From Meiothermus sp. (GTDB taxonomy: Bacteria; Deinococcota; Deinococci; Deinococcales; Thermaceae): DNA of 36,449 nucleotides. Positions 2,667-20,071 of the stretch are shown here, piece after piece; the first letter of the stretch is position 1; each line of letters starts with the position of its first letter. Both the position numbers and the translations under genes were made by a program. The stretch spans positions 1-36,449 of the forward strand of contig NZ_JANXCG010000030.1 of NCBI RefSeq assembly GCF_025060375.1, written 5' to 3'. The notes under the pieces were generated by a model, which saw only the letters and a program-made list of their open reading frames with translations, had not been told where the DNA came from and searched no databases.

Positions 2667-2673
2667 AGCTGGC

Positions 2674-3177: not shown

Positions 3178-3195
3178 CTTGACCTCCTAAGCCTC

Positions 3196-3225: not shown

Positions 3226-3235
3226 CCACCTCCCC

Positions 3236-3832: not shown

Positions 3833-3842
3833 CGGGCACCTC

Positions 3843-4361
3843 CTACCGCTTGGAGAGCAGGGAGATCAGGTTTTTTAGGTTCTCGGCGGCCCGGGGCTGC
3901 TCCTTGAAGGGGTTGTAGGGTTTGCCCTGAGCGATGGCCTGGAACAAGCCGCCACGCCCGCCCGGGGCCTGTGGGCCGCCTGCTTGGGCACCCTGTCCCT
4001 GGCGCTGACGAGCCTCTTCGCGGCGCTTGAGAATGGTCTCGTCCATCCACTTGAGCTGGGCAGGGGTGAGGATGGCGTCCTCAATGGTCCCCAAAATCCT
4101 AGCCGCCTCGGCGGGCTTGAGGTCAGGGCGGTTTTGCAGGTCGCGCAGAATGGGCAACAGCCTTTGGGCCTGGGCCTTGGTAAAGGCCAAGCCGCGCTGC
4201 TTGTCCAGCTCCTCCATTAGGCCGATGGTGGTCACCAGGTCAAAGACCGGGCGGTAGGCCTCAAAGCGCTGCCGCATCTCTGGGGAGAGGTTGGGCGGCC
4301 CCCCCTGAGCTAGGGCCAGGCCAAGGGCCAGCAGTGTCCAAAAGGCGACGGCTCTTCTCAT
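3843..4361 (-). CDS. secreted hypothetical protein upstream of YceI gene
   Basis: The ATG at 4361 has GAAGGGA just upstream and gives 172 residues; the frame stays open further upstream but without a plausible start. A signal peptide (MRRAVAFWTLLALGLALAQG) is followed by a helical region with LTPAQLKWMDE, resembling the Spy/CpxP-type or Hdr-like LTPEQ periplasmic proteins, then a Q/G/A/P-rich linker (about residues 110-135) and a short helical tail. I do not recognise a specific family. Its tight spacing with the YceI gene points to a joint envelope role. It is divergent from the GH125-like gene with 69 bases between the starts. Confidence 0.75.
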   Translation of the reverse strand: MRRAVAFWTLLALGLALAQGGPPNLSPEMRQRFEAYRPVFDLVTTIGLMEELDKQRGLAFTKAQAQRLLPILRDLQNRPDLKPAEAARILGTIEDAILTPAQLKWMDETILKRREEARQRQGQGAQAGGPQAPGGRGGLFQAIAQGKPYNPFKEQPRAAENLKNLISLLSKR

Positions 4362-4386
4362 ATCCCTTCCCTCGTTTAGGCTAATC

Positions 4387-4415
4387 TTGCAATAGATCTG
4401 TGTAGGAAAGATAAA
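4387..4415 (+). promoter_or_regulatory. sigma70-type promoter for GH125-like gene
   Basis: TTGCAA (4387-4392) and GATAAA (4410-4415) are separated by exactly 17 bases and lie 15 bases before the ATG at 4431, in the 69-base divergent spacer. The leader would be very short. Confidence 0.5.
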
Positions 4416-4430
4416 GGACCGGATTGACCC

Positions 4431-6128
4431 ATGCACGCCGACCTTCTGACCCCTGCACCTGTTTTGGACTCGCCCCCTGCGCACCTCCCTACTGGAAATC
4501 TGGATGTGCACGTGGAGGCCTGTCCCAAAGCCCCCCTGGTAAATCGGCTGGGCGTGGTTTCGCTTGCCCTGGACGGTCTGCTGGACTGGGTGGGCGAACC
4601 TCTTTTGGAGGTGCAGGGGGAAGCCTGGCGTTCTTCCCGCCTTTGGGACTGGGTGCCCCAGTGGGAGAACGAGCGGCTGCGGGCTACTCTGCTGGCCCCC
4701 TGGGGCCAGCGAGGGCTAGCCCTGCGCCTGGAGCCCAAGGCTCCGGGGCCTATCCGGGCAACGGGCGCCTTGAGCTACCTGGGGCTTAGGCGGTTTGGGG
4801 AGGAGCGGCTTCGGGTTTCCTTCCACTTCGACCATGACCCCTGGACGGGGAGCTACCTGTTGGAGGCCCGCGCCTACCGCACCCTGCTGGCCCTAGGCCT
4901 CCAGGGCGACCCACCCCCTAGCTGGGTGAACTGGGGGGAGCGGTTTGAGTGGGTCTGGGAGGGAGGGCCCGTAACCCTCTACCTAGGCCTGGCCCCTGAG
5001 GCCGATGGGGCCCGCACCACCGCCCTGCACCTGCGGCGGGTGGGTTGGGAGGGCTTGCTCGAGGGAACACAGCGCAAGCTGGCCTCGCTTTACGAAGCGT
5101 ACCGCGGCCCTCTTCCCGAGGTCTACCGACGCCACTTGGTGTTCAGCTACTTCTACGCCCAGGCCGACAGCTTGGAAGGGGAACCGGTGCTTCTCACCTC
5201 GCGGAGCCCTCACTACTACGTTTCGGGAGCCTACTGGGCCCGGGACGCTTTGCTGTGGTTTTTCCCCGCGCTGCTCAGGGTCGACCGGATGCGGGCCAGG
5301 AAGGTGCTTAGGGCTGCTTTCTTGCGCTACGCTCGCTGGCCTGGGGAGCACGCCCAGTACCTGAGCGGCCCGCCTCTGTACCCTGGCTTTGAGCTTGACC
5401 AGGCCGCGGCTTACCCCCTGGCCCTGGCCCGCTACCTCGAGGTGGCCGGACCGGACCCGGCGCTGTTGATCGAGCTAAGGGAGCCCCTGGAGGGGGTACT
5501 GGGCCGCATACGGGAAGAAAAGCACCCTAGCCTGCCCCTTTACCGGACCTTTCTTTCCCCTACCGACGACCCAGTGCGTGAGCCCTACCTAACCTACGAC
5601 AACGCCCTTCTGTGCGTGGCCCTGGAGCGCCTGGCCCCCTTTTGGCCTGAAGGCAAGGGGCTTCAGCAGGAGGCCCGCGCCATCCGCGAGACCCTCTACC
5701 GCCAGGCCGGTCGCAACGGCCGCTTTGCCTACAGCTTTGAGCCAGGGGGCGCACACACCTTCGCCGACGAGCCGCCAGGTAGCCTCCTGCTCCTGCCCTA
5801 CCTGGGTTTTTGCGACCGCCAAGACCCCCTTTGGCAGGCCACCGCCCTCTGGGTGTTGAGCGCCGACAACCCCTACCATTTTGGGGGCCGCTTCGGTGGA
5901 GAGGGCTCGGTGCACTTCCCCTTCCCTTCGGGTTTCTCTCTGGCCAACCGCATCCTTTCGGGGCTGGTGCGGCCCGCCAATGAGGCCCTTTTGGTCCTGG
6001 AACAGGCCCCCCTCGACCAGGGGTATGCGCCGGAGTCCTTTGACCCCAGAACCGGTCTGGCCCGTACTGGGGTAGGGTTTGCCGCCCTGGCTGGGCTCAT
6101 CGCCCACACGCTGGCCGGGGGAAGGTAG
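4431..6128 (+). CDS. GH125-like glycoside hydrolase
   Basis: A 565-residue protein. The first ~220 residues look like a beta-rich domain. The rest matches the (alpha/alpha)6 barrel of glycoside hydrolase family 125 (metal-independent exo-alpha-1,6-mannosidases) in motif order: GAYWARDALLWF (267-278), PGFELDQAAAYPL (318-330), LTYDNALLC (387-395), FAYSFEPGG (432-440), SLLLLPYLG (451-459) and LSADNPYHFGG (476-486). Asp323 in the FELD motif is the expected acid by analogy. There is no signal peptide, so it is probably cytoplasmic. It could instead act on another alpha-glycan such as mannosyl- or glucosylglycerate-type compounds. It ends one base before the convergent TolC-like gene. Confidence 0.75.
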   Translation: MHADLLTPAPVLDSPPAHLPTGNLDVHVEACPKAPLVNRLGVVSLALDGLLDWVGEPLLEVQGEAWRSSRLWDWVPQWENERLRATLLAPWGQRGLALRLEPKAPGPIRATGALSYLGLRRFGEERLRVSFHFDHDPWTGSYLLEARAYRTLLALGLQGDPPPSWVNWGERFEWVWEGGPVTLYLGLAPEADGARTTALHLRRVGWEGLLEGTQRKLASLYEAYRGPLPEVYRRHLVFSYFYAQADSLEGEPVLLTSRSPHYYVSGAYWARDALLWFFPALLRVDRMRARKVLRAAFLRYARWPGEHAQYLSGPPLYPGFELDQAAAYPLALARYLEVAGPDPALLIELREPLEGVLGRIREEKHPSLPLYRTFLSPTDDPVREPYLTYDNALLCVALERLAPFWPEGKGLQQEARAIRETLYRQAGRNGRFAYSFEPGGAHTFADEPPGSLLLLPYLGFCDRQDPLWQATALWVLSADNPYHFGGRFGGEGSVHFPFPSGFSLANRILSGLVRPANEALLVLEQAPLDQGYAPESFDPRTGLARTGVGFAALAGLIAHTLAGGR

Positions 6129-6129
6129 G

Positions 6130-7176
6130 CTACGGTGCGCTTGCGGCCTGCACCAGTCCGGTGAAGTCCTGTCCGGCCGCCACCGAGAGGGCGGCGAGGG
6201 CTTTCCAGTATGCGCTCACAGCCTGCACCAAAGCGTACTCGGCGCTTTTTAGGGAGACTTGGTCGGTCTGGAGTTGCAGGGCTGAGATGGTGCCCGCCCG
6301 CAGCGCAGCCTGGCTCTGCTCTACCAGTTTCTGGGCGTTGGTTACGTTGGCTTGGGCCAGTGCGATGTTTTTGTGGGCGCTTTGGGCTGCCTGGTAGGCG
6401 TTCTGAAGGCTGGTGAGGGCGTTTTGCTGGGCAGTTTGCAGCGCGCGGAGGTTGTTTTCCAGATTGAGCCTGGCGCTGTTGAGCTGCACCGCTGGGGTGT
6501 AGTCGTTGTCCGCTAGCTTGACGTTGAGCTGGGCCAGCTCTACCGCCTGTTGGGCTTGGAGTACGCTGGGGAGCCGCTCGAAGAGGTTTTTGCGCAGCGC
6601 TTCCAGGTCGGCCTGCAGGGCTGGGGTGGACGGGGGCGGGGCCACGGCGACGTTGCCCAGATCGCTCAGGCCCAGCAGCGCGGCGAGTTGAGCGGCCAGC
6701 ACTGGGAGCTGGGCCTGGGCGGTGGTGAGGGACTGCCTCGAGCTGTCCAGGGTGGTCTGGGCCCGGGCTACATCCAGCGCAGTGGCGTTCCCAGCGGCTA
6801 GGCGGGCTCGGGCCACCTCTAGATTGCGCTGGTTGAGGGCCACTTGGGCTTGGTACAGGGCCACATTCTGCTGGGCTTCGTACAAGCTTAGGTAGGCGTT
6901 CACCACGCTTTGCATCACGCTAAGGCGGGTGGCCTCCAGGTTCACCTGGGCCAGCCTGGCGTTTTGCTCGGCCTGGGTAAGGGCCACAATCAGGGTGCTG
7001 GGGTCGGCTTTGAGCGCATTGAGCTGCAGGGTGGCGTTCTGTAGGGTGGCCTGGGCGCTTTGCAGCGTGGGCCCCTGGCGGTAAGCCTGAGAGAGGGCCT
7101 GAACTAGGGTCAGGGTGTTCTGGGCTTGGGCGGTGGGCAGAAGCAGTAAAAGCCAGAGGAAGCGAACGGGGTTCAT
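6130..7176 (-). CDS. short TolC-like coiled-coil protein lacking beta-hairpins
   Basis: A 348-residue exported protein (signal peptide ending AQAQN) with the two long heptad-like helical repeats of the TolC family, for example ARARLAAGNATALDVARAQTTL and SQAALRAGTISALQLQTDQV, the typical conserved G-T/N-A-x-x-L-x-x-Q turns. The loops that carry the outer-membrane beta-strands in ordinary members are reduced to about ten residues in both halves (around residues 55-65 and 235-245). The ATG at 7176 overlaps the stop of the upstream full-length TolC gene (ATGA), so the two are translationally coupled. It may be a periplasmic-only partner or part of a mixed trimer. Confidence 0.8.
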   Translation of the reverse strand: MNPVRFLWLLLLLPTAQAQNTLTLVQALSQAYRQGPTLQSAQATLQNATLQLNALKADPSTLIVALTQAEQNARLAQVNLEATRLSVMQSVVNAYLSLYEAQQNVALYQAQVALNQRNLEVARARLAAGNATALDVARAQTTLDSSRQSLTTAQAQLPVLAAQLAALLGLSDLGNVAVAPPPSTPALQADLEALRKNLFERLPSVLQAQQAVELAQLNVKLADNDYTPAVQLNSARLNLENNLRALQTAQQNALTSLQNAYQAAQSAHKNIALAQANVTNAQKLVEQSQAALRAGTISALQLQTDQVSLKSAEYALVQAVSAYWKALAALSVAAGQDFTGLVQAASAP

Positions 7177-8498
7177 CGAATCCCTCCTAGGGTGGCGGTC
7201 AGGTCGGTTCCCAAGGCGACGTGTAGGGCCAGACCAGCAAGCTGGGCTTGGGCGGTAGCGGCCTCCAGATTGCGCCGGGCTTGCCGTAGACTCAGCTCAG
7301 CAGCCTGCACCTCCACTGCGGTGCCGGTGCCGGCTTGGAGACGGGCTCGAGCGGTGCTCAGATTTTGTTCGGCAGCCTTGAGAGCACTCTGCGCTGCGGC
7401 AACGCTCGCTTTCGCGGTTAGGAGATTCTGGTACTTCTGGCGCACGTCCAGCTCAGCGGTTTTGCGAACCGAGTCCAAGGACAGCTCGGCGGCCTTGAGG
7501 GCGGTCTGGGCCGAGCTAATCCGGCTTTCGGCGGATGGGTCGGCGATGGGGAGGTTGAGCGAGAGGCCCACCGCCCAGCCCTGCTGGGTACTGCTCCCCT
7601 GCACCAGGGGAACTCCTGCAGAGAGCGATAGGGTGCCGTTTTTTAGGTTAAGACCGGCCGAAAGGCTGGCGCTGGCGCCGCTATAGCCCGCGCTCAACGC
7701 GGCGTTGGGCAGGAGCCGGTCCCGCTGGGCGCTGGCCAGGTTGGCCTGGGCCTCCTCGAGGCCCAACGCGGCCCGTAGCACATCCGGCCGCTGAGCTAGG
7801 GCCCGTTGTATCAAGACATCGAGCCCCTCGCTGGGCAGCTCGGGTTCCTGGGGGGCGGTGCTCGGCAGGCCGAGCTGCTCGGGGCGCAACCCCAGGGTGC
7901 TGGCTAAGGTGAGGCGGGCCAGCTCCAGCGCCCCTTGGGCGCTCACCAGCCCTGAAAGGGCGCTGTCTAGGTTTTGCTGGGCGGTGAGCAGGTCGCTTAG
8001 GGTGGCGCTGCCGGCCTGGTTCTGGGTCCGCACGATTTGGAGCTGCCGCTCCCGCAAGGCCACCGTGGCTTGGGCGATTTCCAGGTCGGCCTGGGCTTGA
8101 CGCAGGTTGAAGTACTGGGTGCAAACGCTGAGGTAGAGGTTGTTGCGGGCCTCCCGACGGGTTAGATCGGCGCGCCTTAGGCCCCGCTCGGCGCTGGCCA
8201 CGGCGTCAGCGCTGCTCGACCAGGGAAACACCCCCAGGCTGGCGGTGGCTGAGAGGGAGAGGCTGCTGCCGCTGGGTTCCCGTAGGACGTATTCGGCTCC
8301 ACCCGAGAGGCTAAGCCCACGTGCAGCCAGGGCCGCCTCGAGCTGCCGGACTGCGCTTTCGTAGGTTTGGTCGGCGCTTTGCCAGTCCAGCGTTCGGGGC
8401 AGGGCTTCCAGCGACTGGGAGAGGGTTAGGCTTCCTTGGGCTAGGCCCGGGGGGGCCAGGGCCAGCAGGACAACGAGGGGAACAAAAAGTCGCTTCAA
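7173..8498 (-). CDS. TolC-family outer membrane efflux protein
   Basis: A 441-residue TolC-family protein. I place the start at TTG 8498, where the message reads GGAGGTACCGC then TTG AAG CGA and a clean signal peptide (LKRLFVPLVVLLALAPPGLAQ) follows; the frame is open upstream but without signal features. Both halves have beta-strand regions rich in alternating Ser/Leu (about residues 70-105 and 270-325) inserted between long helices with G-x-x-x-x-x-V/L-x-A turns. It should form a trimeric outer-membrane channel for a type I exporter or RND/ABC pump. No pump gene is nearby. The second, shorter TolC-like gene is coupled to it. Confidence 0.88.
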   Translation of the reverse strand: MKRLFVPLVVLLALAPPGLAQGSLTLSQSLEALPRTLDWQSADQTYESAVRQLEAALAARGLSLSGGAEYVLREPSGSSLSLSATASLGVFPWSSSADAVASAERGLRRADLTRREARNNLYLSVCTQYFNLRQAQADLEIAQATVALRERQLQIVRTQNQAGSATLSDLLTAQQNLDSALSGLVSAQGALELARLTLASTLGLRPEQLGLPSTAPQEPELPSEGLDVLIQRALAQRPDVLRAALGLEEAQANLASAQRDRLLPNAALSAGYSGASASLSAGLNLKNGTLSLSAGVPLVQGSSTQQGWAVGLSLNLPIADPSAESRISSAQTALKAAELSLDSVRKTAELDVRQKYQNLLTAKASVAAAQSALKAAEQNLSTARARLQAGTGTAVEVQAAELSLRQARRNLEAATAQAQLAGLALHVALGTDLTATLGGIR

Positions 8499-8887: not shown

Positions 8888-9334
8888 ATGAGAACGGTAG
8901 CTGTTTTCGCCTTGGGCCTGGGGGCCCTCCTCACACCGGCCTTGGCGGGCCCGGTGGTGGACTTTGACCGTTGGTACCCTTATCCCCAAGCCCAGCAGTA
9001 TGCCCAAGCCTACCGCCGCATTCTGATGGTCTATTTCTGGGGTCATGGCTGCCCCTACTGCGAGCAGATGAACACCTTTGTCCTTTCAGACGGGGCTGTT
9101 TCCCGAATTCTGGCCCGCAGGTATGTGGTGGCGAGCGTGGACGCGCACAGCCCCGAGGGCCAGTCCCTCTCGCGCCAGATGCGGGCTTTTGGTACCCCCA
9201 CCTTTGTCTTTCTGGTACCCCATGAGGGTGCCTGGAAAGAGATAGGGCGGCTGTTCGGCAGCCGCCCTCGGGCGCAGTTCCTGCGCGAGCTCGAGCAGTT
9301 CTGCGCTAAAGCGGGAGGTGAAGGTTGTGAATAG
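8888..9334 (+). CDS. soxW: SoxW-like periplasmic thioredoxin
   Basis: A 148-residue thioredoxin-fold protein with a signal peptide (cleavage near ALAG, residue 20) and the redox motif CPYC at residues 55-58 in FWGHGCPYC. The expected cis-proline is in FGTPTF. SoxW proteins are thought to keep the SoxY carrier cysteine or other Sox cysteines reduced, fed with electrons by a CcdA/SoxV membrane transporter; such a transporter closes this island at 20088. It is the first gene of the operon, directly behind a good promoter, and overlaps soxY by 8 bases. There is no Shine-Dalgarno, in keeping with the short leader. Confidence 0.85.
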   Translation: MRTVAVFALGLGALLTPALAGPVVDFDRWYPYPQAQQYAQAYRRILMVYFWGHGCPYCEQMNTFVLSDGAVSRILARRYVVASVDAHSPEGQSLSRQMRAFGTPTFVFLVPHEGAWKEIGRLFGSRPRAQFLRELEQFCAKAGGEGCE

Positions 9335-9794
9335 GAGAAAGTTTCTCAAAGCTTCGGCGGGCGCCCTGGCCGCTTCCGTGGTGGTCGGCCGGGTAGGTTC
9401 GGCGCTGGCCCAGGGCGGGCTAGAGGGCGAGGACATCGCCAACCTGGAGAAGGGCCTTCAGGCCAGCCTGGGCAAGGGCTACAAAGACCTCGTACCCTCC
9501 CAGGCCATCAAGCTGACGGCCCCCGCCATTGCCGAGTCGGGAGCGAACGTCCCGGTGGAAATCGAGGTCAACCTGCCGGCCGAGCAGGTCAAAGCCATCC
9601 ACTGCTTCTGCGACAAGAACGCCAACCCCCTGCTCTTCAGCTTCCAGCTCCTCGGTGGAGGGGTGTTGCCCTACTACGCCACCCGCGTGCGCGTGGCCGA
9701 GACTGCGCCGGTGCGGGCGGTGGTGGAGACCAAGGATGGCAGGCTGCTGGTGGCCTCGCAGGGCGTTCGGGTGACGGTAGGAGGCTGCGGTTAG
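9327..9794 (+). CDS. soxY: SoxY, sulfur-carrier subunit
   Basis: SoxY carries the sulfur substrate covalently on a C-terminal cysteine while SoxXA, SoxB and SoxCD act on it in turn. The 155-residue protein ends in VGGCG, the hallmark swinging arm GGCGG/GGCG. It has a twin-arginine signal (NRRKFLKASAGALAAS), so it is exported folded, as expected for the SoxYZ pair. I chose the GTG at 9327 because GGAGGT (9314-9319) is correctly spaced for it; a GTG at 9318 overlaps that site. soxZ follows after 17 bases. Confidence 0.95.
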   Translation: MNRRKFLKASAGALAASVVVGRVGSALAQGGLEGEDIANLEKGLQASLGKGYKDLVPSQAIKLTAPAIAESGANVPVEIEVNLPAEQVKAIHCFCDKNANPLLFSFQLLGGGVLPYYATRVRVAETAPVRAVVETKDGRLLVASQGVRVTVGGCG

Positions 9795-10143: not shown

Positions 10144-10935
10144 ATGGGCCGCTTCTGGCGTCTTCTGGCGGCCTTGGCCCTGGCCCTGGGGGCCTTGGGG
10201 GCTTCGGCCCAGGAGGAGGATGATCCGGTAAAGGAGGCGGAGAAGCAGAAGAAGCAGCTCTTGGAGCAGAGCGGGGGCATCCTTCCCAGCGACCTGTACG
10301 TCCAGCAAGGAGAGGAGCTGTTCAAGGCCAAACGGGGGCCCAAACAGGCCAGCCTCGAGGCCTGCGACTTCGGCCGGGGGCCGGGTAGGCTCGAGGGGGT
10401 GGTGGGCCGGCTGCCCCGCTACTTCTTTGACACCCGACGGGTAGAGGACCTGGACTCCCGAATCCGCACCTGCATGATCCGGCTCCAGGGCTTCCGCCCC
10501 GAGGAGATCCGGCGCAGCGAGGTGGTGGCCATCGCCTTCTACATCGCCTCGCTCTCCAACGAGCAGACGATGTACGTGCGGCCCCTTATGCCGCAGGAGA
10601 AGAAGCTCTACGAGCTGGGCGAGAAGCTCTTCTACCTGCGCGCTGGTCCGCGCGACATGGGCTGCGCCTCGTGCCACGTGACCTACGTGGGCCGCCGGGC
10701 TGGGGTGCTGCCCTACTCCGACCTCTTGGGAGACAAACGGGTAGCCAGCCACTGGCCGGCCTTCCGCTACTCCAACGACCAGGCCTGGACCATGGCCGAC
10801 CGCATCCGGGCCTGCTACGCCAACCTGGGGATGCCCGCGCCGGACTTCTATTCCGAGCCCATCATCGCGCTGACCCTCTTCATGAACGCGCAGGCCAGGG
10901 GGGCACGGATGGACCTGCCGGGGTTCATACGCTAG
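10144..10935 (+). CDS. soxA: SoxA, cytochrome c subunit (copy 1)
   Basis: SoxA is the catalytic half of SoxXA, which oxidatively joins thiosulfate to the SoxY cysteine. The 263-residue product has a signal peptide (to about residue 22), a single haem c motif CASCH at 174-178, and the conserved cysteine Cys224 (RIRACYANLGM), which in the family is the haem ligand modified to persulfide. The N-terminal haem site of dihaem SoxA is absent; instead Cys74 and Cys110 may form a disulfide as in mono-haem types. AAGGAG precedes the ATG. soxX follows. A second copy lies at 13872. Confidence 0.93.
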   Translation: MGRFWRLLAALALALGALGASAQEEDDPVKEAEKQKKQLLEQSGGILPSDLYVQQGEELFKAKRGPKQASLEACDFGRGPGRLEGVVGRLPRYFFDTRRVEDLDSRIRTCMIRLQGFRPEEIRRSEVVAIAFYIASLSNEQTMYVRPLMPQEKKLYELGEKLFYLRAGPRDMGCASCHVTYVGRRAGVLPYSDLLGDKRVASHWPAFRYSNDQAWTMADRIRACYANLGMPAPDFYSEPIIALTLFMNAQARGARMDLPGFIR

Positions 10936-10945
10936 GAGGTGGAGG

Positions 10946-11521
10946 GTGCGTCGGTTTTACCTGATCGCTTTGCTGGCCTTCCTGGGCCCGGCCAGTGGCC
11001 AGCCGGGCCCCGTCTACATCACCCCTGAGCTCCAGCGGCTCATCCAGGCAGGTGGGCAAAACTACGCCAACGTGCTTTTGAGGCAGGCCCCGGACCAGGC
11101 ACTCTGCTCCATCCACCGCAACCGCTTGCCCCCGGAGGTGCTGGGCTCCTTCATTGAGGAACAGCGCCGGCTCATCAAGTACCCCGAGGGGGGGCGGCTG
11201 ATGGGCGACTGGAAGCGGGGTGAGGCCATCTACAACACCCTGGCTCGAGGCAACTGCTTCTCCTGCCACGTGGGCTCGCCCCTCAACATTGGCGGCAACG
11301 TAGGGCCTAGCCTGGAGAAGTACGGCCAGAGGGGTACCTCGGAGGCTGTTCAACGCTATACCTACGAGGTGATCTACAACCCTTGGGCCTACTTCCCCTG
11401 CACGGTGATGTACCGCTTCGGCCACGGTGGGCTTCTGAAGCCCGAGGAAATCGCCGATGTGGTGGCCTACCTGCTTGACCCTTCCTCGGACTTCAACACC
11501 AAACCGGCGCTGAAGCGCTGA
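10946..11521 (+). CDS. soxX: SoxX, cytochrome c subunit (copy 1)
   Basis: SoxX is the small electron-accepting subunit of SoxXA. This 191-residue protein has a signal peptide ending near SGQP, one haem motif CFSCH at 104-108, and a likely distal methionine at Met155 in PCTVMYRFG. Cys54 and Cys152 are conserved between the two copies here and may pair. The start is GTG at 10946 with AGGAGGT about 5 bases upstream. At ~190 residues it is of the longer SoxX type. It sits 10 bases after soxA and 8 bases before soxB. Confidence 0.93.
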   Translation: MRRFYLIALLAFLGPASGQPGPVYITPELQRLIQAGGQNYANVLLRQAPDQALCSIHRNRLPPEVLGSFIEEQRRLIKYPEGGRLMGDWKRGEAIYNTLARGNCFSCHVGSPLNIGGNVGPSLEKYGQRGTSEAVQRYTYEVIYNPWAYFPCTVMYRFGHGGLLKPEEIADVVAYLLDPSSDFNTKPALKR

Positions 11522-11529
11522 GTGAAAAA

Positions 11530-13281
11530 TTGCGGCTTCTTCCCACTGCGTTTGTGGGGGAGAGGGGGACTTCTACGACTCGACGCGAACTGGCACGGTT
11601 TCTGCTGGCCCTTGGCTTAACCTCTCCTAGGGCCTTTGCGCAGGCCATGGACCGCCCGGAGCGGCTCTACGACGTCCCGCCCTTTGGCGACGTGACCCTG
11701 CTTTTCAGCACCGACCTGCACGCTCAGCTAAGGCCCCACCACTTCATGGAGCCCCCCAACCTGCTGGCCCCCAAGCCGCTGGAGGGTCGGCCCGGCTACC
11801 TGGCCGGGGAGGCCATGCTGCGCTACTACGGCATCCGGCGGGGGAGCCTGGAGGCCTATGTTTTCTCCTCGGTGGACTTTGCGGCCCTGGCCCAGCGTTT
11901 TGGGCCCATGGGCGGGGGGGCCCATATCGGCACCCTTATCCGCCGTCAGCGGGCCGCCGCGGGGGAACGCCGCACCTTGGTGCTGGATGGAGGCGATAAC
12001 TGGACCAACTCCGGCATCTCCTTGCTCACCAAGGGGCAGGTCATGGTGGACTGGATGAACCGGGTGGGCTTCGACCACATGGTCTTTCACTGGGAGTACA
12101 CCCTGGGCCGGCCCCGGGTGGAGGAGCTGGTCAAAGAGCTCAAGGCCCAGGTGGTGAGCTTCAACATCGTGGATGACCTCTTCGGCGACCCCATCTACGA
12201 ACCCTACCGCATCCACGAGATAGGGGGCTACAGCCTGGCCATCATCGGCTCTACCTTCCCCTACGTGAAGGTCTCCCACCCCGAGGAGTTTTCCGAGGGG
12301 CTTTCCTTCGGCGTGCGGGAGAAGGAGCTACAGCGCTATGTGGACGAGCTGCGGGGCAAGGGGGTAGACGCCATCGTGCTTCTCTCCCACAACGGCGTCC
12401 CGCTGGACTCGGCGATTGCCGAGAGGGTCAGCGGCATTGACCTGATTCTCACCGGCCATACCCACGACTATACCCCCCGTCCAGCCCGCTTCGGGAACAC
12501 CTGGCTGGTGGCGGGTGGGGCTGCGGGTAAGGCGGTGGTCCGGGTGGACCTCAAGCTTAGGAAGGGGGGCATTCAGGAAATCCGGCAGACCGTGCTGCCT
12601 GTGGCGAGCAACCTAATCCAACCCGATGCCGACCTGGTGGAGTTTGTGGAGGGAGCCTATGCCCCCCACAAAGCCTACCTGGACGAGGTGCTGGGTACAG
12701 CCGAGACCCTCATCTACAAGCGCGACTCCACCTACTCTACCTTCGACGAGCTCTCGGGCCGGGCCATTCAGGCCTTCTACCCCGAGGTGGAGGTGGCCTT
12801 CAGCCCGGGCACCCGCTGGGGTACGGCCATCCTCCCGGGCCAGCCCATCACCATGGACCGGTTGCTGGCCTACACCGCCTTCACCTACCCTGAGGTGTAC
12901 GTCTTCAAGCTCAAAGGGGAGAGGCTTTTGGCCGTCCTGGAGGATGTGGCGGCCAATGCCTTCAATCCCGATCCCTTCTACCAGCAGGGAGGGGATATGA
13001 GCCGGGTCTACGGACTTGCCTACGACCTGGCGGTGAATGCGCCCACCGGCCAGCGCATCCGCAATGTGGCCATACGGGGGCGGCGGCTTGACCCGAACCG
13101 CGAGTACGTTGTGGCGGCCTATGGGGGTCGGCTGCAGCGCAGCGGCACCATCCTGGAGAAGTACACCCCCAGGCCCATCTATGACATCATGGCGGAGTAC
13201 ATCCGTCAGCTCAAAACCGTTAGTGTCCCACCTCGCCCCAGCATGCGGGTGCTGGACCATCGCTATGTACTGCCTGGCTGA
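11530..13281 (+). CDS. soxB: SoxB, dimanganese thiosulfohydrolase
   Basis: SoxB cleaves the terminal sulfonate as sulfate from SoxY-bound intermediates in the periplasm. The 583-residue protein is a calcineurin-like/5'-nucleotidase two-domain enzyme. Metal-binding motifs are visible in order: STDLHAQL (60-67), DGGDNW (153-158), HWEYTLG (187-193, the SoxB variant of NHE), SHNG (286-289) and GHTHD (309-313). The N-terminal segment contains TTRRELARFLLALG, a Tat-like signal. The start is uncertain: TTG 11530 fits the frame but has only a weak ribosome site; GTG 11554 is an alternative. Coupling to soxX (8-base gap) may drive translation. Confidence 0.93.
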   Translation: MRLLPTAFVGERGTSTTRRELARFLLALGLTSPRAFAQAMDRPERLYDVPPFGDVTLLFSTDLHAQLRPHHFMEPPNLLAPKPLEGRPGYLAGEAMLRYYGIRRGSLEAYVFSSVDFAALAQRFGPMGGGAHIGTLIRRQRAAAGERRTLVLDGGDNWTNSGISLLTKGQVMVDWMNRVGFDHMVFHWEYTLGRPRVEELVKELKAQVVSFNIVDDLFGDPIYEPYRIHEIGGYSLAIIGSTFPYVKVSHPEEFSEGLSFGVREKELQRYVDELRGKGVDAIVLLSHNGVPLDSAIAERVSGIDLILTGHTHDYTPRPARFGNTWLVAGGAAGKAVVRVDLKLRKGGIQEIRQTVLPVASNLIQPDADLVEFVEGAYAPHKAYLDEVLGTAETLIYKRDSTYSTFDELSGRAIQAFYPEVEVAFSPGTRWGTAILPGQPITMDRLLAYTAFTYPEVYVFKLKGERLLAVLEDVAANAFNPDPFYQQGGDMSRVYGLAYDLAVNAPTGQRIRNVAIRGRRLDPNREYVVAAYGGRLQRSGTILEKYTPRPIYDIMAEYIRQLKTVSVPPRPSMRVLDHRYVLPG

Positions 13282-13296
13282 AGGAGGTTCGCTTTT

Positions 13297-13869
13297 GTGA
13301 AAGGGAAGCGGTTGTTGTTCTGGTTTGTGGTAGCTGTGCTTTTGGGGGTGGCCCTCTCGCAGCAGAGCCCCTTTCAGCAGCGGGTGAACCAAGCCATTCA
13401 AAGCGGGGGGCCGGAATTCCAAAGGAGCATGCAACAGGACCCAGACCAAGCCCTTTGCTCCCAGTACCGCGACAGACTACCCGCGGAGCTGGTGCCAGCC
13501 TTCCTGGAGCGGCAGAGGAAGCTCATCAAGTACCCCGCCGATGGGAAGCTAATGGGGGATTGGAAGAAAGGGGAGGAGCTTTTTACCAACCCCCGCAAGG
13601 GCAATTGTTATGCCTGCCACACGGGCGATCCCAGGGAAGCGGGGGCTGGCAACATGGGGCCTGGCCTGGTGGGGTACGGCGCACGGGGCACCAGCGAGGC
13701 GGTGGTGAAGTACACCTATGACAAAATCTACAACGCCTGGGCCTCCATGCCCTGCTCCCTCATGTACCGGGCCGGCTACCACGGCATCCTGAGCCCGGAG
13801 GATACTGCCCACATCGTGGCCTTCCTGCTTGACCCGGCTTCGCCGGTGAACGCCAACCTCAAGAGGTGA
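13297..13869 (+). CDS. soxX: SoxX paralogue, cytochrome c subunit (copy 2)
   Basis: A second 190-residue SoxX with a signal peptide, haem motif CYACH at 104-108 and likely ligand Met156 in PCSLMYRAG. It is co-linear with the first copy over nearly its whole length, sharing the DPDQALCS, LIKYP, LMGDWK and GTSEAV blocks, but has clearly diverged, so the duplication is not recent. The start is GTG at 13297 behind AAGGAGGT. Here the order is soxX then soxA, the reverse of the first pair. Together with soxA2 it would form an alternative SoxXA complex. Confidence 0.92.
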   Translation: MKGKRLLFWFVVAVLLGVALSQQSPFQQRVNQAIQSGGPEFQRSMQQDPDQALCSQYRDRLPAELVPAFLERQRKLIKYPADGKLMGDWKKGEELFTNPRKGNCYACHTGDPREAGAGNMGPGLVGYGARGTSEAVVKYTYDKIYNAWASMPCSLMYRAGYHGILSPEDTAHIVAFLLDPASPVNANLKR

Positions 13870-13871
13870 GT

Positions 13872-14675
13872 ATGCGTAGAAACCGCTTGTACCGCGTGTT
13901 GGGGCTGGCCTTGCTGGGGTTCGCGCTGGGGGTGGCCCTGACCCAAAGCCAGCAGGAGCTTGACCCCTACAAGGAGGCCGAGCGGCAGCGGGAGCTGTTC
14001 CGCCAGACCGCAGGGATTCTGCCGGGTGAGCTCTACGCTGCTCAGGGTGAGGAACTGTTCTATGCCAAGCGGGGGCCCAGGCAGGTGAGCCTTGAGGCTT
14101 GCGACTTTGGCCTGGGGCCGGGGAAGCTCGAGGGGGCCCTGACCCAGCTGCCCCGCTACTTCGCCGACACCAGGCGGGTAGAGGATCTGGAAACCCGCAT
14201 TGTGAGCTGTATGGTTCGGCTCCAAGGCTTCAGGCTTGAGGATATCAAGCGCGACGAGGTGAAAGCCCTGGTGGCCTACGTGGCCTCTAAGTCGAGCGAG
14301 ATGCCCATCAACGTGGTGCCCCGCACCTCGCAGGAGGTCGCCATGTACAACCTGGGCCGCGAGCTCTGGTACCACCGGGCAGGCGACCGGGATATGAACT
14401 GCGCCATCTGCCATGAGAGCTATGCGGGCCGCAAGGTGCGGCTCTCGCCGGTGCGCAGCCCGCGCCAGGGGCTTTCCAATGAGTGGCCGGCCTACCGCTT
14501 TGAGGCCGATAAGCTCTACACCTTGCAGGACCGCATCGCTTTCTGTTACGAGTCCATCGGCATTCGCCCACCCGTCTACTACTCTGAGCCCTACATTGCC
14601 CTCTCCATGTACATGCTGGCGGAGGCCACCAAGGGCAAGAACAGGTTCACTGAGATGCCGGGTTTTACCCGCTAG
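13872..14675 (+). CDS. soxA: SoxA paralogue, cytochrome c subunit (copy 2)
   Basis: A second mono-haem SoxA of 267 residues. It has a signal peptide, haem motif CAICH at 177-181 and the family cysteine Cys225 in DRIAFCYESIG. The N-terminal cysteines matching Cys74 and Cys110 of copy 1 are kept in SLEACDFG and RIVSCMVRLQG. I prefer ATG 13872 because GAGGTG lies about 5 bases upstream; a GTG at 13866 overlapping the soxX2 stop is the other option. It differs from copy 1 around the haem and active-site cysteine, which may tune substrate or redox potential. Confidence 0.92.
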   Translation: MRRNRLYRVLGLALLGFALGVALTQSQQELDPYKEAERQRELFRQTAGILPGELYAAQGEELFYAKRGPRQVSLEACDFGLGPGKLEGALTQLPRYFADTRRVEDLETRIVSCMVRLQGFRLEDIKRDEVKALVAYVASKSSEMPINVVPRTSQEVAMYNLGRELWYHRAGDRDMNCAICHESYAGRKVRLSPVRSPRQGLSNEWPAYRFEADKLYTLQDRIAFCYESIGIRPPVYYSEPYIALSMYMLAEATKGKNRFTEMPGFTR

Positions 14676-14686
14676 AGGAGATGGCT

Positions 14687-15118
14687 ATGCGTAGGGGAAT
14701 GTTGGTGCTGGTGCTCCTGGGCGGCCTTGGGTTGGCGCAGGAGATGACCCCCGGGGCCCTGCTCCAGTTTGGGAGTTATCTCAAGAAGGTTAACCCCGCC
14801 AGCTACCTGCTCTACGCCGCCGAGGCCAAGGACTACGTAGAGGTCTTTGAGCCCTTCATCCTGGACGTGCGCACCAATGAGGAGCGCGCCAGGGGCTTTA
14901 TTCCTGGCTCGGTACACATCCACATCAGCCAGCTGCCCGACCGCCTGGCCGCGCTGCCCAAGGACAAGAGCAAGCCCATTTTGGTCTACTGTGGCACCGG
15001 TCATGTGAGTGCGGTGGCCGCGGCTTATCTGCGGGCGCTGGGCTATACCGAGGTTAAGAACCTGAATGGGGGATTCAGGGCCTGGCTCGAGCTGGGCCTT
15101 CCCGTAGAACGACCCTAG
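14687..15118 (+). CDS. periplasmic rhodanese-domain protein in sox operon
   Basis: A 143-residue exported single-domain rhodanese. It has a signal peptide (MRRGMLVLVLLGGLGLAQ), the CH2A-type LDVRTNEERARGFIPGS block and an active-site loop YCGTGHVS with Cys102 at the sulfur-accepting position. Rhodaneses carry sulfane sulfur as a cysteine persulfide; here it would act on polysulfide or thiosulfate-derived sulfur in the periplasm beside the Sox system. ATG 14687 is chosen because GAGGAG ends 6 bases before it, whereas ATG 14681 abuts that site. It lies between soxA2 and the DUF302-like gene. Confidence 0.88.
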   Translation: MRRGMLVLVLLGGLGLAQEMTPGALLQFGSYLKKVNPASYLLYAAEAKDYVEVFEPFILDVRTNEERARGFIPGSVHIHISQLPDRLAALPKDKSKPILVYCGTGHVSAVAAAYLRALGYTEVKNLNGGFRAWLELGLPVERP

Positions 15119-15128
15119 GGGGTGAACC

Positions 15129-15995
15129 GTGCGCGTGCGTCTGTTGCTGCTGATGGCTGTCCTGATGATCTCCGGAACCCTGGCCCAGTCCTTGGAGACC
15201 ACCCTGCGCGGGGTAGGTGTTGCTGAAGCCCAAGCCCGGGTGGAGGCTGCCTTGGCCGCCCAAGGGCTTAAGGTGGCCCGGACACTCAACCTGGGGGGCC
15301 AGGTCAAGAACTTTAAGGCCGACTTCCCTGACTATCTCCTGCTCGTGCTGGAGCCGGAGGAGGGTACCCTGGCCGCGGTGCAGGAGAACTTCATGACCGC
15401 CATCATCCTGCCCCCCACGGTCTACCTTCACGCGGCCCAGCCCGGCGCTGTAACCGTCGGCACTTTTGACCCCGACCTGATGTTCGGCATGCTGGGGGTC
15501 AAAAACACCAAGAGTCGGCTCCTTGGGGCCAAGCTCAAGGCGGTAATTTACAGCCTGGGCCTGCCCCGCCGGGTGGCCCCAGCCATGATGCCTGATCCCC
15601 GTTCGGGGATGATGCCGGTCCTGCTCTACCAGGTGGAGGGGGGTAGCGCCGAGGAGCTCACCTTGCTCATCGAAAGCGAGCTGAGCAGCAACGGCCTGAA
15701 CGTGCTCCCGGCAGTCAAGATGGGCAACGTGACCGGCATACACCCCTGCAAGAGCGAGTGGGCCTACCAGATGTTCATGACCCAGCCAGCTGGCGGCTTT
15801 GCTGCCCCCTGCCGCTTCTTCGTGATGCCGGTACAGGGCGGGGTTCTGGTGGGGGCGATTGAGCCGATGCTCATGAGCATCATGCCTGGTGTGGCCCAGA
15901 GCCAGCCCACCATGAGCATGTTGCAGGAGGCCCGGCGGGTAATGAGCCAGATCCTCGAGGCTGTAGGGGGACGTCCCTATCGCCCGGGGCAATAA
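15129..15995 (+). CDS. exported DUF302-like protein of the sox island
   Basis: A 288-residue protein with a signal peptide (to about residue 19, TLAQS). The repeated pattern of a helix starting EAQARVEAALAAQGLKV followed by strands, and a later second unit (SAEELTLLIESELSSNGLNVL), resembles two DUF302 domains, a fold linked to sulfur metabolism in several bacteria. Two cysteines (in IHPCKSEW and AAPCRFF) lie in the second half and could bind sulfur or metal. The start is GTG at 15129 behind GGGGGTG. It is the last gene before a 128-base gap with a palindrome. The family assignment is by pattern only. Confidence 0.6.
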   Translation: MRVRLLLLMAVLMISGTLAQSLETTLRGVGVAEAQARVEAALAAQGLKVARTLNLGGQVKNFKADFPDYLLLVLEPEEGTLAAVQENFMTAIILPPTVYLHAAQPGAVTVGTFDPDLMFGMLGVKNTKSRLLGAKLKAVIYSLGLPRRVAPAMMPDPRSGMMPVLLYQVEGGSAEELTLLIESELSSNGLNVLPAVKMGNVTGIHPCKSEWAYQMFMTQPAGGFAAPCRFFVMPVQGGVLVGAIEPMLMSIMPGVAQSQPTMSMLQEARRVMSQILEAVGGRPYRPGQ

Positions 15996-16123: not shown

Positions 16124-17404
16124 ATGAGCAAGGTAACGCGGCGCAAACTACTGAAGGCGGGGGCGTTGGCTGGGGCAGCAGCAGCCACCCAGGGATTTGC
16201 CCAGGAGTTCTTCAGCAAGCCCAGCAGCGTGCTGGGGCCGGCTCGGGGAAACCGGGTGGTCATCATCGGAGGAGGCTGGGGCGGGGTGAGCACCGCTCGT
16301 CACCTGCGGCGCAAGAACCCCAACATCGAGGTGGTGCTCATAGAGAAAAACCCCGCCTTCATGTCCTGCCCCATGAGCAACCTCTACCTAGGTGGGGTGA
16401 AGGACCTCGACTTCATCGTCTTTGACTACGCCAACGTGGCCCGGGCAGGGGTCACCATCGTCAACGAGCGGGCGATTGAGGTCAACCGAGCAGGCCGCTA
16501 CGTGCGCACCACCAGCGGCATCATCTTCTACAACTACCTGGTGGTCTCCCCCGGCATCGACTACATGTACGAGGCCATCCAGGGCTACAGCGAGGTCAAG
16601 CAGTTCTTGCCTGTGGCCTTCAAGCCCTGGGAACACATCGCCCTCAAGCGCCAGCTCGACAACTTTGAGGGTGGGGACATCGTGATCTCCATCCCCCGGC
16701 CGCCTTACCGCTGCCCGCCTGGGCCCTACGAGCGGGCGGCCATGCTGGCCTACTACCTCAAGACCAACCGCATCAAGGGCAAGGTGATCGTGCTGGACGC
16801 TAACCCCGGCCCTATCTCCAAGGGTCCGGGCTTCACCGCTGCCTACAACGACCTCTACAAGGACTACATCCAGTACATCCCCCAGGCCGAGGTCACGGCC
16901 ATTGACTACGGCAAGAAGGAGGTCAAGACCCCGCTGGGCGAGTTCAAGTTCGACCTAGCCAACATCATCCCGCCGATGAGGGCCAGTGAAATCGTGCGCA
17001 CCGCTGGGTTGGGGGACCGCTGGGTCAACGTGCGGCTCCCCACCTTCCTATCGGAGGTGGACGACCGGGTGTACGTGATCGGGGACGTGATCGGCAACGC
17101 CCCCTTCCCCAAGAGCGGCCAGGTGGCCTACAACGACGGCAAGATTATCGCCGACCACATTGCCCAGCGCATCGCGGGGAAGCGGCTGGACGAGATTGAA
17201 AACCCCTTGCCTGACAACATCTGCTACAGCTTCGTGAGCAACGAGGAGTCCATCTGGGTTTCCCACAAGCACACCTGGGACGCCGCGGCCCGCCAGGTGC
17301 GCCAGCAGTCCACGGTGGACAACAACCGCTCTAAGCCCAACGGCGCGCTGGCCTTCGAGTGGGCCCGGGGTCTGTGGAGCGACATGTTTGGGCCTGGCGC
17401 CTGA
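16124..17404 (+). CDS. flavocytochrome c sulfide dehydrogenase-type flavoprotein (FccB/SoxF)
   Basis: A 426-residue FAD oxidoreductase that would oxidise sulfide in the periplasm and pass electrons to a cytochrome c. It has a Tat signal (VTRRKLLKAGALAGAAA), the FAD GGGWGG motif (49-54), and the two redox cysteines of the family at Cys82 (FMSCPMSNLYLGG) and Cys197 (PPYRCPPGPYERA). The conserved VYVIGDVIG FAD-binding segment lies in the second half. GGGAGGAG precedes the ATG. No dedicated haem subunit (FccA/SoxE) is adjacent; SoxD or SoxX-type cytochromes may substitute. soxC follows after 59 bases. Confidence 0.9.
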   Translation: MSKVTRRKLLKAGALAGAAAATQGFAQEFFSKPSSVLGPARGNRVVIIGGGWGGVSTARHLRRKNPNIEVVLIEKNPAFMSCPMSNLYLGGVKDLDFIVFDYANVARAGVTIVNERAIEVNRAGRYVRTTSGIIFYNYLVVSPGIDYMYEAIQGYSEVKQFLPVAFKPWEHIALKRQLDNFEGGDIVISIPRPPYRCPPGPYERAAMLAYYLKTNRIKGKVIVLDANPGPISKGPGFTAAYNDLYKDYIQYIPQAEVTAIDYGKKEVKTPLGEFKFDLANIIPPMRASEIVRTAGLGDRWVNVRLPTFLSEVDDRVYVIGDVIGNAPFPKSGQVAYNDGKIIADHIAQRIAGKRLDEIENPLPDNICYSFVSNEESIWVSHKHTWDAAARQVRQQSTVDNNRSKPNGALAFEWARGLWSDMFGPGA

Positions 17405-17463: not shown

Positions 17464-18771
17464 ATGAACCGACGTAAACTGCTGCAACTCTTGAGCAAAG
17501 GGGCCGCCGCCGGGGCTTTTGTGAAGCTCTCCGGTGGTCTGGCCCAAGGAGGGGAGAAGTTCTCTGAAAAGGCCTTCGAGCCCATGCGCTTTTTGGGTGC
17601 CGAGCTGAGGGAGTACGGCGAGCGCAGCGAGTTTGAGAAGGGGGTGGTGCGCTACATCTCCCCCAACCTGCGCACCCGCCACTCCGGGGCCAACTTTACC
17701 CCTTTGGACAAGCTGGATGGGGTAATTACCCCAAGTTCGCTGCACTTTGAGCGACACCACGCAGGGGTGCCCACCATTGACCCGGCCGAGCACCGCCTGG
17801 TCATCCACGGCATGGTGGAGCGGCCCCTTATCTTCACCATGGCCGACATCAAGAGACTGCCCTCGGTGACCCGCACCCTTTTCATCGAGTGTGCGGGCAA
17901 CGGCCAGAACGGCTACCGCAACCCCCCCGACATGACCCTGACCGCTACCCGCAGCCGGGGGCTGGTCTCCAACTCCTCCTGGACGGGGGTTCCTCTAGCG
18001 ATTTTGCTCAAGGAGGCCGGCATCAAAGAGGGGGCTCGCTGGCTCATTCCCGAAGGGGCCGATGCCGCGGCCTACACCCGCAGTCTGCCCTTGGAGAAAG
18101 CCCTGGAGGACGTGCTGGTGGCCTACGCCCAGAACGGCGAGGCCCTCCGTCCCGAGCAGGGCTATCCTCTTCGGCTCATCGTACCGGGCTGGGAGGGCAG
18201 CATCATGGTCAAATGGCTGCGGCGCATCCAGGTAACCGATATGCCGGTGATGTCCAAGGACGAAACCTCGGAGTACACCGACACCATGGCAAATGGGAAG
18301 ATCCACGCCTTCACCTGGATTATGGAGCCCCAGTCCATCATCACCTACCCCTCGGGGTTGCAGCAGATAACCCGCGGTTTTCACGAAATCCGGGGCCTGG
18401 CCTGGAGCGGGCATGGGCGCATTGTTCGGGTGGAGGTTTCGCTGGATGGAGGGAGGACCTGGCGCCGGGCCAGTCTCGAGCCCTCTCCCGACCCCCTTTC
18501 GGTGGTGCGCTTCAAGCTGGGCTGGGTCTGGGACGGCAGGGAGACGGTCATCATGAGCCGGGCCTGGGACGAGAAGGGCAACACCCAGCCCACCCAGGAG
18601 GAGTTTTTCGCCCGCTGGGCCCGCAACAACCGCTACCATTACAACGCCATCCAAGCCTGGCGCATCCAAGCCGACGGCAAGGTGGTCAATGGGGACAGAA
18701 CACTCTCCGCCTCGCTGGCCCCGCACCGGCTGGGGGCAGTAGGGCTAGGTGGATGTGGGGGTGAGTCGTGA
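17464..18771 (+). CDS. soxC: SoxC, molybdenum sulfane dehydrogenase subunit
   Basis: SoxC is the molybdopterin subunit of SoxCD, which oxidises SoxY-bound sulfane sulfur with release of six electrons. The 435-residue protein has a Tat signal (MNRRKLLQLLSKGAAAG), the sulfite-oxidase fold with molybdenum ligand Cys143 in FIECAGNGQNG, the cofactor-binding GWEGSIMVKWLRRI segment, and the C-terminal dimerisation domain starting near GHGRIVRVEVSLDGG. AGGAG is 10 bases before the ATG. Its stop overlaps the soxD GTG by 4 bases. Presence of soxCD implies complete thiosulfate oxidation to sulfate without sulfur globules. Confidence 0.95.
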   Translation: MNRRKLLQLLSKGAAAGAFVKLSGGLAQGGEKFSEKAFEPMRFLGAELREYGERSEFEKGVVRYISPNLRTRHSGANFTPLDKLDGVITPSSLHFERHHAGVPTIDPAEHRLVIHGMVERPLIFTMADIKRLPSVTRTLFIECAGNGQNGYRNPPDMTLTATRSRGLVSNSSWTGVPLAILLKEAGIKEGARWLIPEGADAAAYTRSLPLEKALEDVLVAYAQNGEALRPEQGYPLRLIVPGWEGSIMVKWLRRIQVTDMPVMSKDETSEYTDTMANGKIHAFTWIMEPQSIITYPSGLQQITRGFHEIRGLAWSGHGRIVRVEVSLDGGRTWRRASLEPSPDPLSVVRFKLGWVWDGRETVIMSRAWDEKGNTQPTQEEFFARWARNNRYHYNAIQAWRIQADGKVVNGDRTLSASLAPHRLGAVGLGGCGGES

Positions 18772-19337
18772 AGCGGCTGGGCCTGGTGCTGTTGGCCTTG
18801 GGGGTGCTGGCCGGGGTGCTGGCCCAGCCCGGGGGTGGGGGCCGCTACCAGATCGGCACACCCCTAACCGAGCAGGAGGTTCAGCGCTGGAATATCCGCC
18901 CCTCCATCCTACCCGACGGGCGTGGGCTTCCACCCGGCCAGGGCACTGTGGACGAGGGCGAGCAGGTCTACAACGCCCAGTGCCTGGGCTGTCACGGGGC
19001 CAACGGCCAGGGTGGGGTCTTCAACCGTTTGGTCGGGGAGCCCTTTCCCGTTACCAAGGACGTAGACCCGGTGGACTTCGTGATCGGCAACTACTGGCAG
19101 TACCCCACCACCCTCTTTGACTACATCCGCCGGGCCATGCCCTTCCAGGCCCCCGGCACCCTCAAGGACGACGAGGTGTACGCCCTGGTGGCCTACCTGC
19201 TCTACCAAAATGGTGTAATTGATGGCAGCGAGCCCATGAATGCCCAGACCCTGCCCAAGGTGCAGATGCCCGCGCGGGCGATTTTGGAGCTTGACCCCAC
19301 TACCCAAAAGCGCTTCCCCTGGCTCAGGCTTCCTTAG
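18768..19337 (+). CDS. soxD: SoxD-type cytochrome c subunit
   Basis: A 189-residue exported mono-haem cytochrome c. It has a signal peptide ending VLAQP, haem motif CLGCH at 72-76 and a likely axial Met124 in RRAMPFQAPG. It is shorter than the dihaem SoxD of alphaproteobacteria, lacking the N-terminal haem domain, and resembles the single-haem SoxD forms. The GTG start overlaps the soxC stop, so SoxC and SoxD are co-translated as a complex. It would pass electrons from the molybdenum centre to the respiratory chain or to the adjacent Rieske protein. Confidence 0.88.
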   Translation: MKRLGLVLLALGVLAGVLAQPGGGGRYQIGTPLTEQEVQRWNIRPSILPDGRGLPPGQGTVDEGEQVYNAQCLGCHGANGQGGVFNRLVGEPFPVTKDVDPVDFVIGNYWQYPTTLFDYIRRAMPFQAPGTLKDDEVYALVAYLLYQNGVIDGSEPMNAQTLPKVQMPARAILELDPTTQKRFPWLRLP

Positions 19338-19345
19338 AGGTGAAG

Positions 19346-20071
19346 ATGAATCGTCGAAGCTTTATTGACCTCCTCAACAAGGGGTTTTCCCTGGGGCTTC
19401 TGCTCAAGCTAATGCCCGTGGGGATGCTCGAGTTCGTCCGCGCCCAGAGCAGCGCCACAAGCTTTCAGAGGGCTCTTTTGGTGGACAAAGCGGGCAACCC
19501 CTTCAAGCTGAGTACGCTCAAGCCGCACGAGCCCTTCGTGTTCGCTTACCCCTACGCCGCCACCCCCAACATCCTGGTCAACGTGGACACCGAACTGCCC
19601 CCAGTGGACGTGAAGATGCCCGACGGCAGGGACTACCGCTGGCCCGGTGGGGTGGGTCCTCGCAGGAGCGTGGTGGCCTATACCAGCATCTGTCCTCACG
19701 GCTACAGCTACGCCGCGCCCAACCTGGGGGCCATGGGCTACTACAAACCTGAGGGCAACCGGGGGCCCCGTATGGTCTGCTGTGCCCACCTTTCGTCCTT
19801 TGATGTAAGCAGGGGAGGGGAGGTGAAGGGTGGCCCCGCCCCCCACGCCCTGGCCGCGGTTGCGCTGGAGTACGACGCTGCCAAGGATGAGGCCTACGCC
19901 GTGGGCTTTTTGGGTAATCCCCGGTTTGACGAGTTTTTTCGAGCCCAGCAACAGAGCCTGCGCGACCTCTTCCGCACCACCGCCCGGGCCCGCGAGGAGG
20001 TGACCAAGGCCACCGTCATCCCCTACGCCGAGCATACCCGGGTGCCCACGAGCTGCCCGGTGGTGGGGTAG
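19346..20071 (+). CDS. Rieske-type [2Fe-2S] protein linked to soxCD
   Basis: A 241-residue protein with a twin-arginine-like N-terminus (MNRRSFIDLLNKG) and hydrophobic segment, which may act as a signal or anchor. A Rieske cluster is indicated by C-x-H (Cys116, His118 in SICPHGYSY) and C-x2-H (Cys145, His148 in VCCAHLSSFD). The box-disulfide cysteines of bc1-type Rieske proteins are not both present. ATG 19346 is preferred over GTG 19340 because GAGGTGA serves as ribosome site. Only 8 bases separate it from soxD, so it probably accepts electrons from SoxCD or links it to the quinone pool. That role is inference. Confidence 0.8.
   Translation: MNRRSFIDLLNKGFSLGLLLKLMPVGMLEFVRAQSSATSFQRALLVDKAGNPFKLSTLKPHEPFVFAYPYAATPNILVNVDTELPPVDVKMPDGRDYRWPGGVGPRRSVVAYTSICPHGYSYAAPNLGAMGYYKPEGNRGPRMVCCAHLSSFDVSRGGEVKGGPAPHALAAVALEYDAAKDEAYAVGFLGNPRFDEFFRAQQQSLRDLFRTTARAREEVTKATVIPYAEHTRVPTSCPVVG

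Follow-up and report, generated by a model that had tools for sequence, protein, structure and literature searches.

Why would one operon carry two complete SoxXA cytochromes, placed in mirror order on either side of soxB? A sequence-only reading of a Meiothermus sp. contig had pointed to this arrangement as peculiar. The window (36,449 nucleotides) is the whole contig, taken from a genome of 2.39 Mb. Here we ask how widespread the arrangement is, whether both pairs are likely to work, and where the second pair came from.

Gene content of the locus

The sox genes from soxY to soxA2 were assigned with NCBIfam equivalog models and their curated cut-offs. The gene order is TlpA-soxY-soxZ-soxA1-soxX1-soxB-soxX2-soxA2-rhodanese-DUF302-soxF-soxC-soxD, with the following features:

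8888..9334, + strand: thioredoxin-fold protein (SoxW/TlpA-like); weak DsbD C-terminal match; heads the conserved cluster and lies upstream of soxY across Thermaceae loci
9318..9794, + strand: soxY, sulfur carrier; TIGR04488, 145 bits (cut-off 125); sole copy in the genome
9812..10132, + strand: soxZ; TIGR04490, 99.8 bits (cut-off 76)
10144..10935, + strand: soxA1, mono-haem SoxA paralogue 1; TIGR04484, 230.8 bits (cut-off 110); best PDB match 3oa8_A, E=5e-46
10946..11521, + strand: soxX1, partner cytochrome; TIGR04485, 85.1 bits (cut-off 61); 3oa8_B, E=3e-21
11530..13281, + strand: soxB thiosulfohydrolase, between both pairs; TIGR04486, 749.9 bits (cut-off 550)
13297..13869, + strand: soxX2; TIGR04485, 83.9 bits (cut-off 61); 3oa8_B, E=2.5e-29
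13866..14675, + strand: soxA2, mono-haem SoxA paralogue 2; TIGR04484, 222.1 bits (cut-off 110); start overlaps the soxX2 stop
14681..15118, + strand: rhodanese-like sulfurtransferase; sub-cut-off matches to rhodanese-containing models; neighbour conserved in Thermaceae
15129..15995, + strand: DUF302-like protein; PF03625, 22.6 bits, just below the cut-off of 23; conserved neighbour
16124..17404, + strand: soxF-like flavocytochrome c sulfide dehydrogenase flavoprotein; PF21706, PF09242
17464..18771, + strand: soxC molybdoprotein; PF00174, PF03404; conserved
18768..19337, + strand: soxD cytochrome c; PF13442; conserved

All five genes of the soxA1-soxX1-soxB-soxX2-soxA2 series lie on the plus strand where the sequence-only reading had placed them, and all score above their cut-offs. 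RefSeq relatives of the DUF302-like protein are annotated as "translation initiation factor 2". Searches of the genome found no SoxA or SoxX beyond these two of each and a single SoxY; therefore, both SoxXA pairs must share one carrier. Between soxD and ccdA lies a Rieske-type protein (19340-20071), judged by eye and without a Pfam match. Its gene is present in the clusters of the main Meiothermus group and Calidithermus, and was not found in those of Thermus, Allomeiothermus and genome G019.

Distribution of the two-pair arrangement

Is the arrangement special to this genome? It is not: the two-SoxXA layout is ordinary for Thermaceae and already published, so the peculiarity first attributed to it has essentially gone. 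Thermus brevis PS18 has two soxA and two soxX genes whose copies share about 50% identity; they surround soxB in the same order (Figure 7 legend), with the same flanking genes (PMC13019369). Compared with that cluster, the Meiothermus locus adds the Rieske-type protein. In Thermus thermophilus HB8, the sox operon TTHA1422-TTHA1410 contains the same five-gene series from TTHA1419 to TTHA1415, with TTHA1419-1418 and TTHA1416-1415 flanking the soxB gene TTHA1417 (PMC10318464). The HB8 operon is repressed by TTHA1953 (PMC10318464). The RefSeq annotation of the Allomeiothermus silvanus plasmid pMESIL01 (NC_014213) shows the same sox order.

Our survey covered 111 genomes of the phylum. SoxA was detected in 45 of the 50 Thermaceae genomes; 42 of these 45 have both copies, three have copy 2 alone, and none has copy 1 alone. 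Gene order was surveyed by tblastn with the genes of the studied locus in 38 stretches from 35 genomes. Another 28 Thermaceae genomes (Meiothermus, Calidithermus, Thermus and Allomeiothermus) carry the five-gene order on a single contig, and three more have the set split over contigs. The longer order Y-Z-A1-X1-B-X2-A2-rhodanese-DUF302-F-C-D likewise runs along one contig in the Meiothermus sp. locus and in 28 other genomes, and the order is identical in every checked Thermaceae genome with a single-contig cluster and both pairs. The nearest relative of the genome in the set, G007 (presumed Meiothermus luteus), has a SoxA1 that is 95% identical.

The three single-copy genomes (G028; G030, presumed Thermus brockianus YIM 77927; and G068) all retain copy 2, and the SoxA of G068 sits inside the A2 clade. 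Thermus G028 and G030 keep SoxB alongside pair 2 only. In Thermus G068 (L250, 5472-13277), A1-X1-B is gone as a block and there is no SoxB; the remaining SoxX is X2-like and includes an X1-like stretch, AVQRYVYEVVYNAWAYFPC, as if gene conversion had preceded the loss. G034 has both SoxA genes and a frame break in soxX1 (L251, 2353-2924) next to an intact soxA1; copy 1 may be decaying, or the sequence may contain an error. The neighbouring family coded f4 has a single SoxXA, in the order Y-Z-X-A-C-D; L071 (G058, 2514-8236) and L260/L089 (G064) read soxF-TlpA-Y-Z-X-A-C-D. SoxB was not found anywhere in the f4 assemblies, which are incomplete.

Two further loci depart from the common picture. On plasmid pMESIL01 (L068, G023:C2:1-3000, and L189), the 3' part of soxA2, the rhodanese, DUF302 and soxF genes are repeated at the start of the record; the sox cluster is therefore partly duplicated. 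G001 (L052/L083; presumed Meiothermus granaticius) has a SoxA1 of 63% identity, compared with 83-95% in other Meiothermus, and its sox cluster groups with Thermus and Allomeiothermus in both the SoxA and SoxX trees. The whole cluster was probably transferred between genera.

Haem ligands, conserved residues and selection

Do both pairs retain what a SoxXA needs? Each of the four proteins has one CxxCH motif: CASCH from residue 174 in SoxA1, CAICH from residue 179 in SoxA2, and, both from residue 104, CFSCH in SoxX1 and CYACH in SoxX2. The distal methionines of SoxX are Met155 (MYRFG) and Met156 (MYRAG), respectively, so that both SoxX proteins keep haem motif and methionine as first described. 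Both SoxA proteins are mono-haem and keep the cysteine ligand. In SoxA1 this is Cys224; the residue previously given as Cys225 of SoxA2 is Cys227 when the start is the GTG at 13866, the earlier count having begun at an ATG two codons later. A missing catalytic cysteine or haem motif in either copy is ruled out by intact motifs and ligands in both. The closest structure for both SoxXA copies is Starkeya novella SoxXA (3oa8). An AlphaFold2 model of SoxA2 (pLDDT 92) gives 3oa8_A as its top fold match (E=4.7e-18, TM 0.83-0.88); for SoxA1 the fold was assigned by alignment to 3oa8_A (E=5e-46).

The two SoxA proteins are about 51-52% identical. PMC4423706 names as active-site residues of SoxA the cysteine ligand, an arginine four residues before it, Arg232 of R. 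sulfidophilum, and a Lys/Ser position equivalent to Arg109 of TsdA; by our own numbering, Arg232 is the arginine of the WPxYR motif. The residues of interest are Cys224, Arg220, Arg208, Gly187 and Ser210 in SoxA1 and Cys227, Arg223, Arg211, Arg192 and Glu213 in SoxA2. Across Thermaceae, the CxxCH motif, the cysteine ligand, the arginine four residues ahead of it and the WPxYR arginine are present in 31/31 SoxA1 and 33/33 SoxA2. The f4 SoxA (G058, G064) has threonine in place of the WPxYR arginine. At the position of TsdA Arg109, all 31 Thermaceae SoxA1 have serine and all 33 SoxA2 have glutamate. A further arginine lies in the loop that follows the haem motif (Arg192 in SoxA2; Gly187 at the same place in SoxA1). 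It is found in 33/33 Thermaceae SoxA2, 85/88 Pseudomonadota SoxA and 31/33 Aquificota SoxA, and is replaced by glycine in 31/31 SoxA1. This loop arginine is conserved in most SoxA and is not a known requirement; it is absent from the active-site residues named in the passages of PMC4423706 consulted here.

The sequence-only reading had stated that all catalytic residues are retained. This holds for the haem motif, the cysteine ligand and two arginines, but is too strong in view of Gly187 for arginine in SoxA1 and the Ser/Glu difference. Either different substrates or different potentials would fit the fixed differences near the SoxA haem. By what means could the loop arginine matter? It may contact a haem propionate and thereby tune the potential, a guess that we draw from general knowledge of cytochromes c.

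Median pairwise dN/dS values are 0.097 for soxA1, 0.122 for soxX1, 0.118 for soxA2 and 0.126 for soxX2; those of the comparison genes soxY (0.131) and soxC (0.091) are close to all four. One soxB outlier probably stems from wrong-frame Thermus "SoxB" sequences, as do spurious short SoxB matches. Judged by these ratios, purifying selection acts equally on both pairs. Decay of one copy to a pseudogene in the Meiothermus sp. genome is ruled out by intact frames and purifying constraint.

Function of the two pairs

Why keep both? The proposal of two functional complexes is strengthened by family-wide conservation, equal constraint (dN/dS ~0.10-0.13), co-induction in HB8 and high expression in T. 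brevis. In a TTHA1953 mutant, TTHA1419 to TTHA1415 rise 24.7, 32.9, 8.17, 16.0 and 8.87-fold (PMC10318464), and the proteins of the T. brevis PS18 sox cluster are highly expressed on thiosulfate (PMC13019369). We consider it likely that the operon encodes two working, co-expressed SoxXA isoenzymes that share one SoxYZ, with pair 2 indispensable and pair 1 a tuned accessory. They would form two paralogous heterodimers, A1-X1 and X2-A2, exported together with the other Sox components and having SoxYZ, SoxB and SoxCD in common; cross-pairing, for example of A1 with X2, may occur. Both pairs are expected to run the standard SoxXA reaction, in which a thiosulfate-type sulfur compound is oxidatively conjugated to the SoxYZ cysteine, with the cysteine-ligated SoxA haem as the predicted route. 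Pair 2 would be the core enzyme. Pair 1 would be the accessory isoenzyme, its haem pocket altered by the change of arginine to glycine at residue 187, which may give it another redox potential, rate, sulfur substrate or carrier state.

Could the pairs instead divide the labour by substrate, with A1X1 and SoxB acting on thiosulfate while X2A2 loads species derived from sulfide or polysulfide (through SoxF and the rhodanese) onto SoxYZ? A1, X1 and B are contiguous, X2-A2 adjoins rhodanese-DUF302-SoxF, and differences in the active-site region are fixed. Moreover, two f4 genomes and Thermus G068 are without A1, X1 and SoxB together, yet keep YZ, XA2, CD and F. However, Thermus G028 and G030 retain SoxB with pair 2 only, and the adjacency to SoxF and the rhodanese may reflect gene order only; such a split seems doubtful. 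That the pairs do one job as a matter of gene dosage, and differ by drift only, is quite unlikely. It would fit their position in one operon, their co-expression and the loss of pair 1 from some Thermus, but the copies have been kept apart at ~50% identity in 42 genomes without homogenisation of SoxA, paralogue-specific residues are fixed under equal constraint, and losses hit copy 1 exclusively.

Origin of the duplication and of the mirror order

Two isoenzymes in one operon could have arisen by duplication in place or by transfer, alternatives that a phylogeny had been proposed to separate. A SoxA tree of 60 rows unites A1, A2 and the lone f4 SoxA, with 100/100 support, to the exclusion of Pseudomonadota and the one Aquificota row; this joint clade is recovered (99/92) in a tree enlarged with more Aquificota and Pseudomonadota. 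The copies cluster together, the outcome expected of local duplication. A1 and A2 form a clade each in the SoxA trees and track host groups separately, so no homogenisation of the SoxA copies has taken place. Where does f4 belong? It joins A2 in the SoxA trees (96/95 and 98/96) and lies outside X1+X2 (97/88) in the SoxX tree; AU tests on the duplication versus the f4 split rejected no alternative (p 0.105-0.212). The trees support a duplication that took place within Thermales and predates the radiation of Thermaceae. One soxXA pair would have been doubled there, and its copies would have stayed together since. Deletion of an A1-X1-B block from a doubled ancestor would account for f4, an outcome matching G068.

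Separate horizontal transfers of the two pairs, which the SoxA trees disfavour, are very improbable: A1-X1-B does carry the outside gene order, and an origin beyond Deinococcota is probable for the entire Thermaceae cluster (PMC13019369), but A1 and A2 group together against all sampled Pseudomonadota and Aquificota SoxA in both trees.

Beyond Deinococcota, the genes usually run Y-Z-A-X-B, for example in many Betaproteobacteria; one Aquificota group has TlpA-Y-Z-A-X-B. Z-A1-X1-B is therefore the common order and X2-A2 the rearranged duplicate. A1-X1-B keeps the Z-A-X-B order of other phyla, and the rearrangement affects X2-A2, downstream of soxB; the mirror order would thus be a historical by-product of duplication. 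The swapped order had been singled out as surprising; it is so only in a local sense, the arrangement being standard across Thermaceae.

Recurrent loss of the loop arginine

Two SoxAX sets are not confined to Thermaceae. Starkeya novella likewise has two in its genome, with mono-haem SoxA; its second set, soxX2Y2Z2A2F2, lies elsewhere in the genome, has no soxB and went undetected in the proteome (PMC3797975). Unlike those sets, the Thermaceae pairs occupy a single operon and are induced together in HB8. Aquificota G145 and G153 (L256, L257) have a tandem soxA-soxA-soxX-soxB, with SoxA doubled within the operon directly after soxZ. There, in contrast to Thermaceae, SoxX is single and SoxA has a second CxxCH, and the duplication is independent. 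The first tandem SoxA (L256, 8220-10368; L257, 8743-10888) has phenylalanine at the otherwise conserved arginine.

Outside Deinococcota, 16 of 19 two-SoxA genomes (second copies included) combine an arginine-bearing with an arginine-less SoxA; these genomes are not independent, and the Pseudomonadota clade, a set defined by the missing arginine, counts once. Of the 17 single-copy genomes included at the same stage, one had an arginine-less SoxA. On the tree, the arginine was lost three times: in Thermaceae A1 (Gly), in two Aquificota tandem copies (Phe) and in one Pseudomonadota clade (Ala, Gly, Val). The losses in Aquificota and Pseudomonadota are independent, and nearly always affect the second copy where a genome has two SoxA. 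Of 25 conserved columns checked, the loop arginine alone is missing from each of the three groups while being invariant in A2, a check that is partly circular because the Pseudomonadota set was defined by the missing arginine. That three phyla independently reached one arginine-bearing and one arginine-less SoxA per cell may point to an additional SoxXA role with a chemistry of its own. This role might involve a different substrate, a different redox potential or a different state of the carrier, outside textbook Sox schemes; we offer the whole suggestion tentatively, as improbable on balance. Most worth pursuing is the convergent loss of arginine among duplicated SoxA proteins.

Implications

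What purpose do duplicate sox genes serve? The question was raised, and left unanswered, in PMC3797975, and SoxAX is said to resist mechanistic study (PMC4423706). A natural Gly/Arg pair of SoxA, in one operon of a tractable thermophile and with its loss repeated in other phyla, offers a handle on the purpose of SoxXA isoenzymes. Most likely, copy 2 is indispensable, and copy 1 is accessory and altered near the haem. The mirror arrangement, old and shared by the whole family, goes back to a local duplication; it reflects the evolution of isoenzymes and not a peculiarity of one genome.
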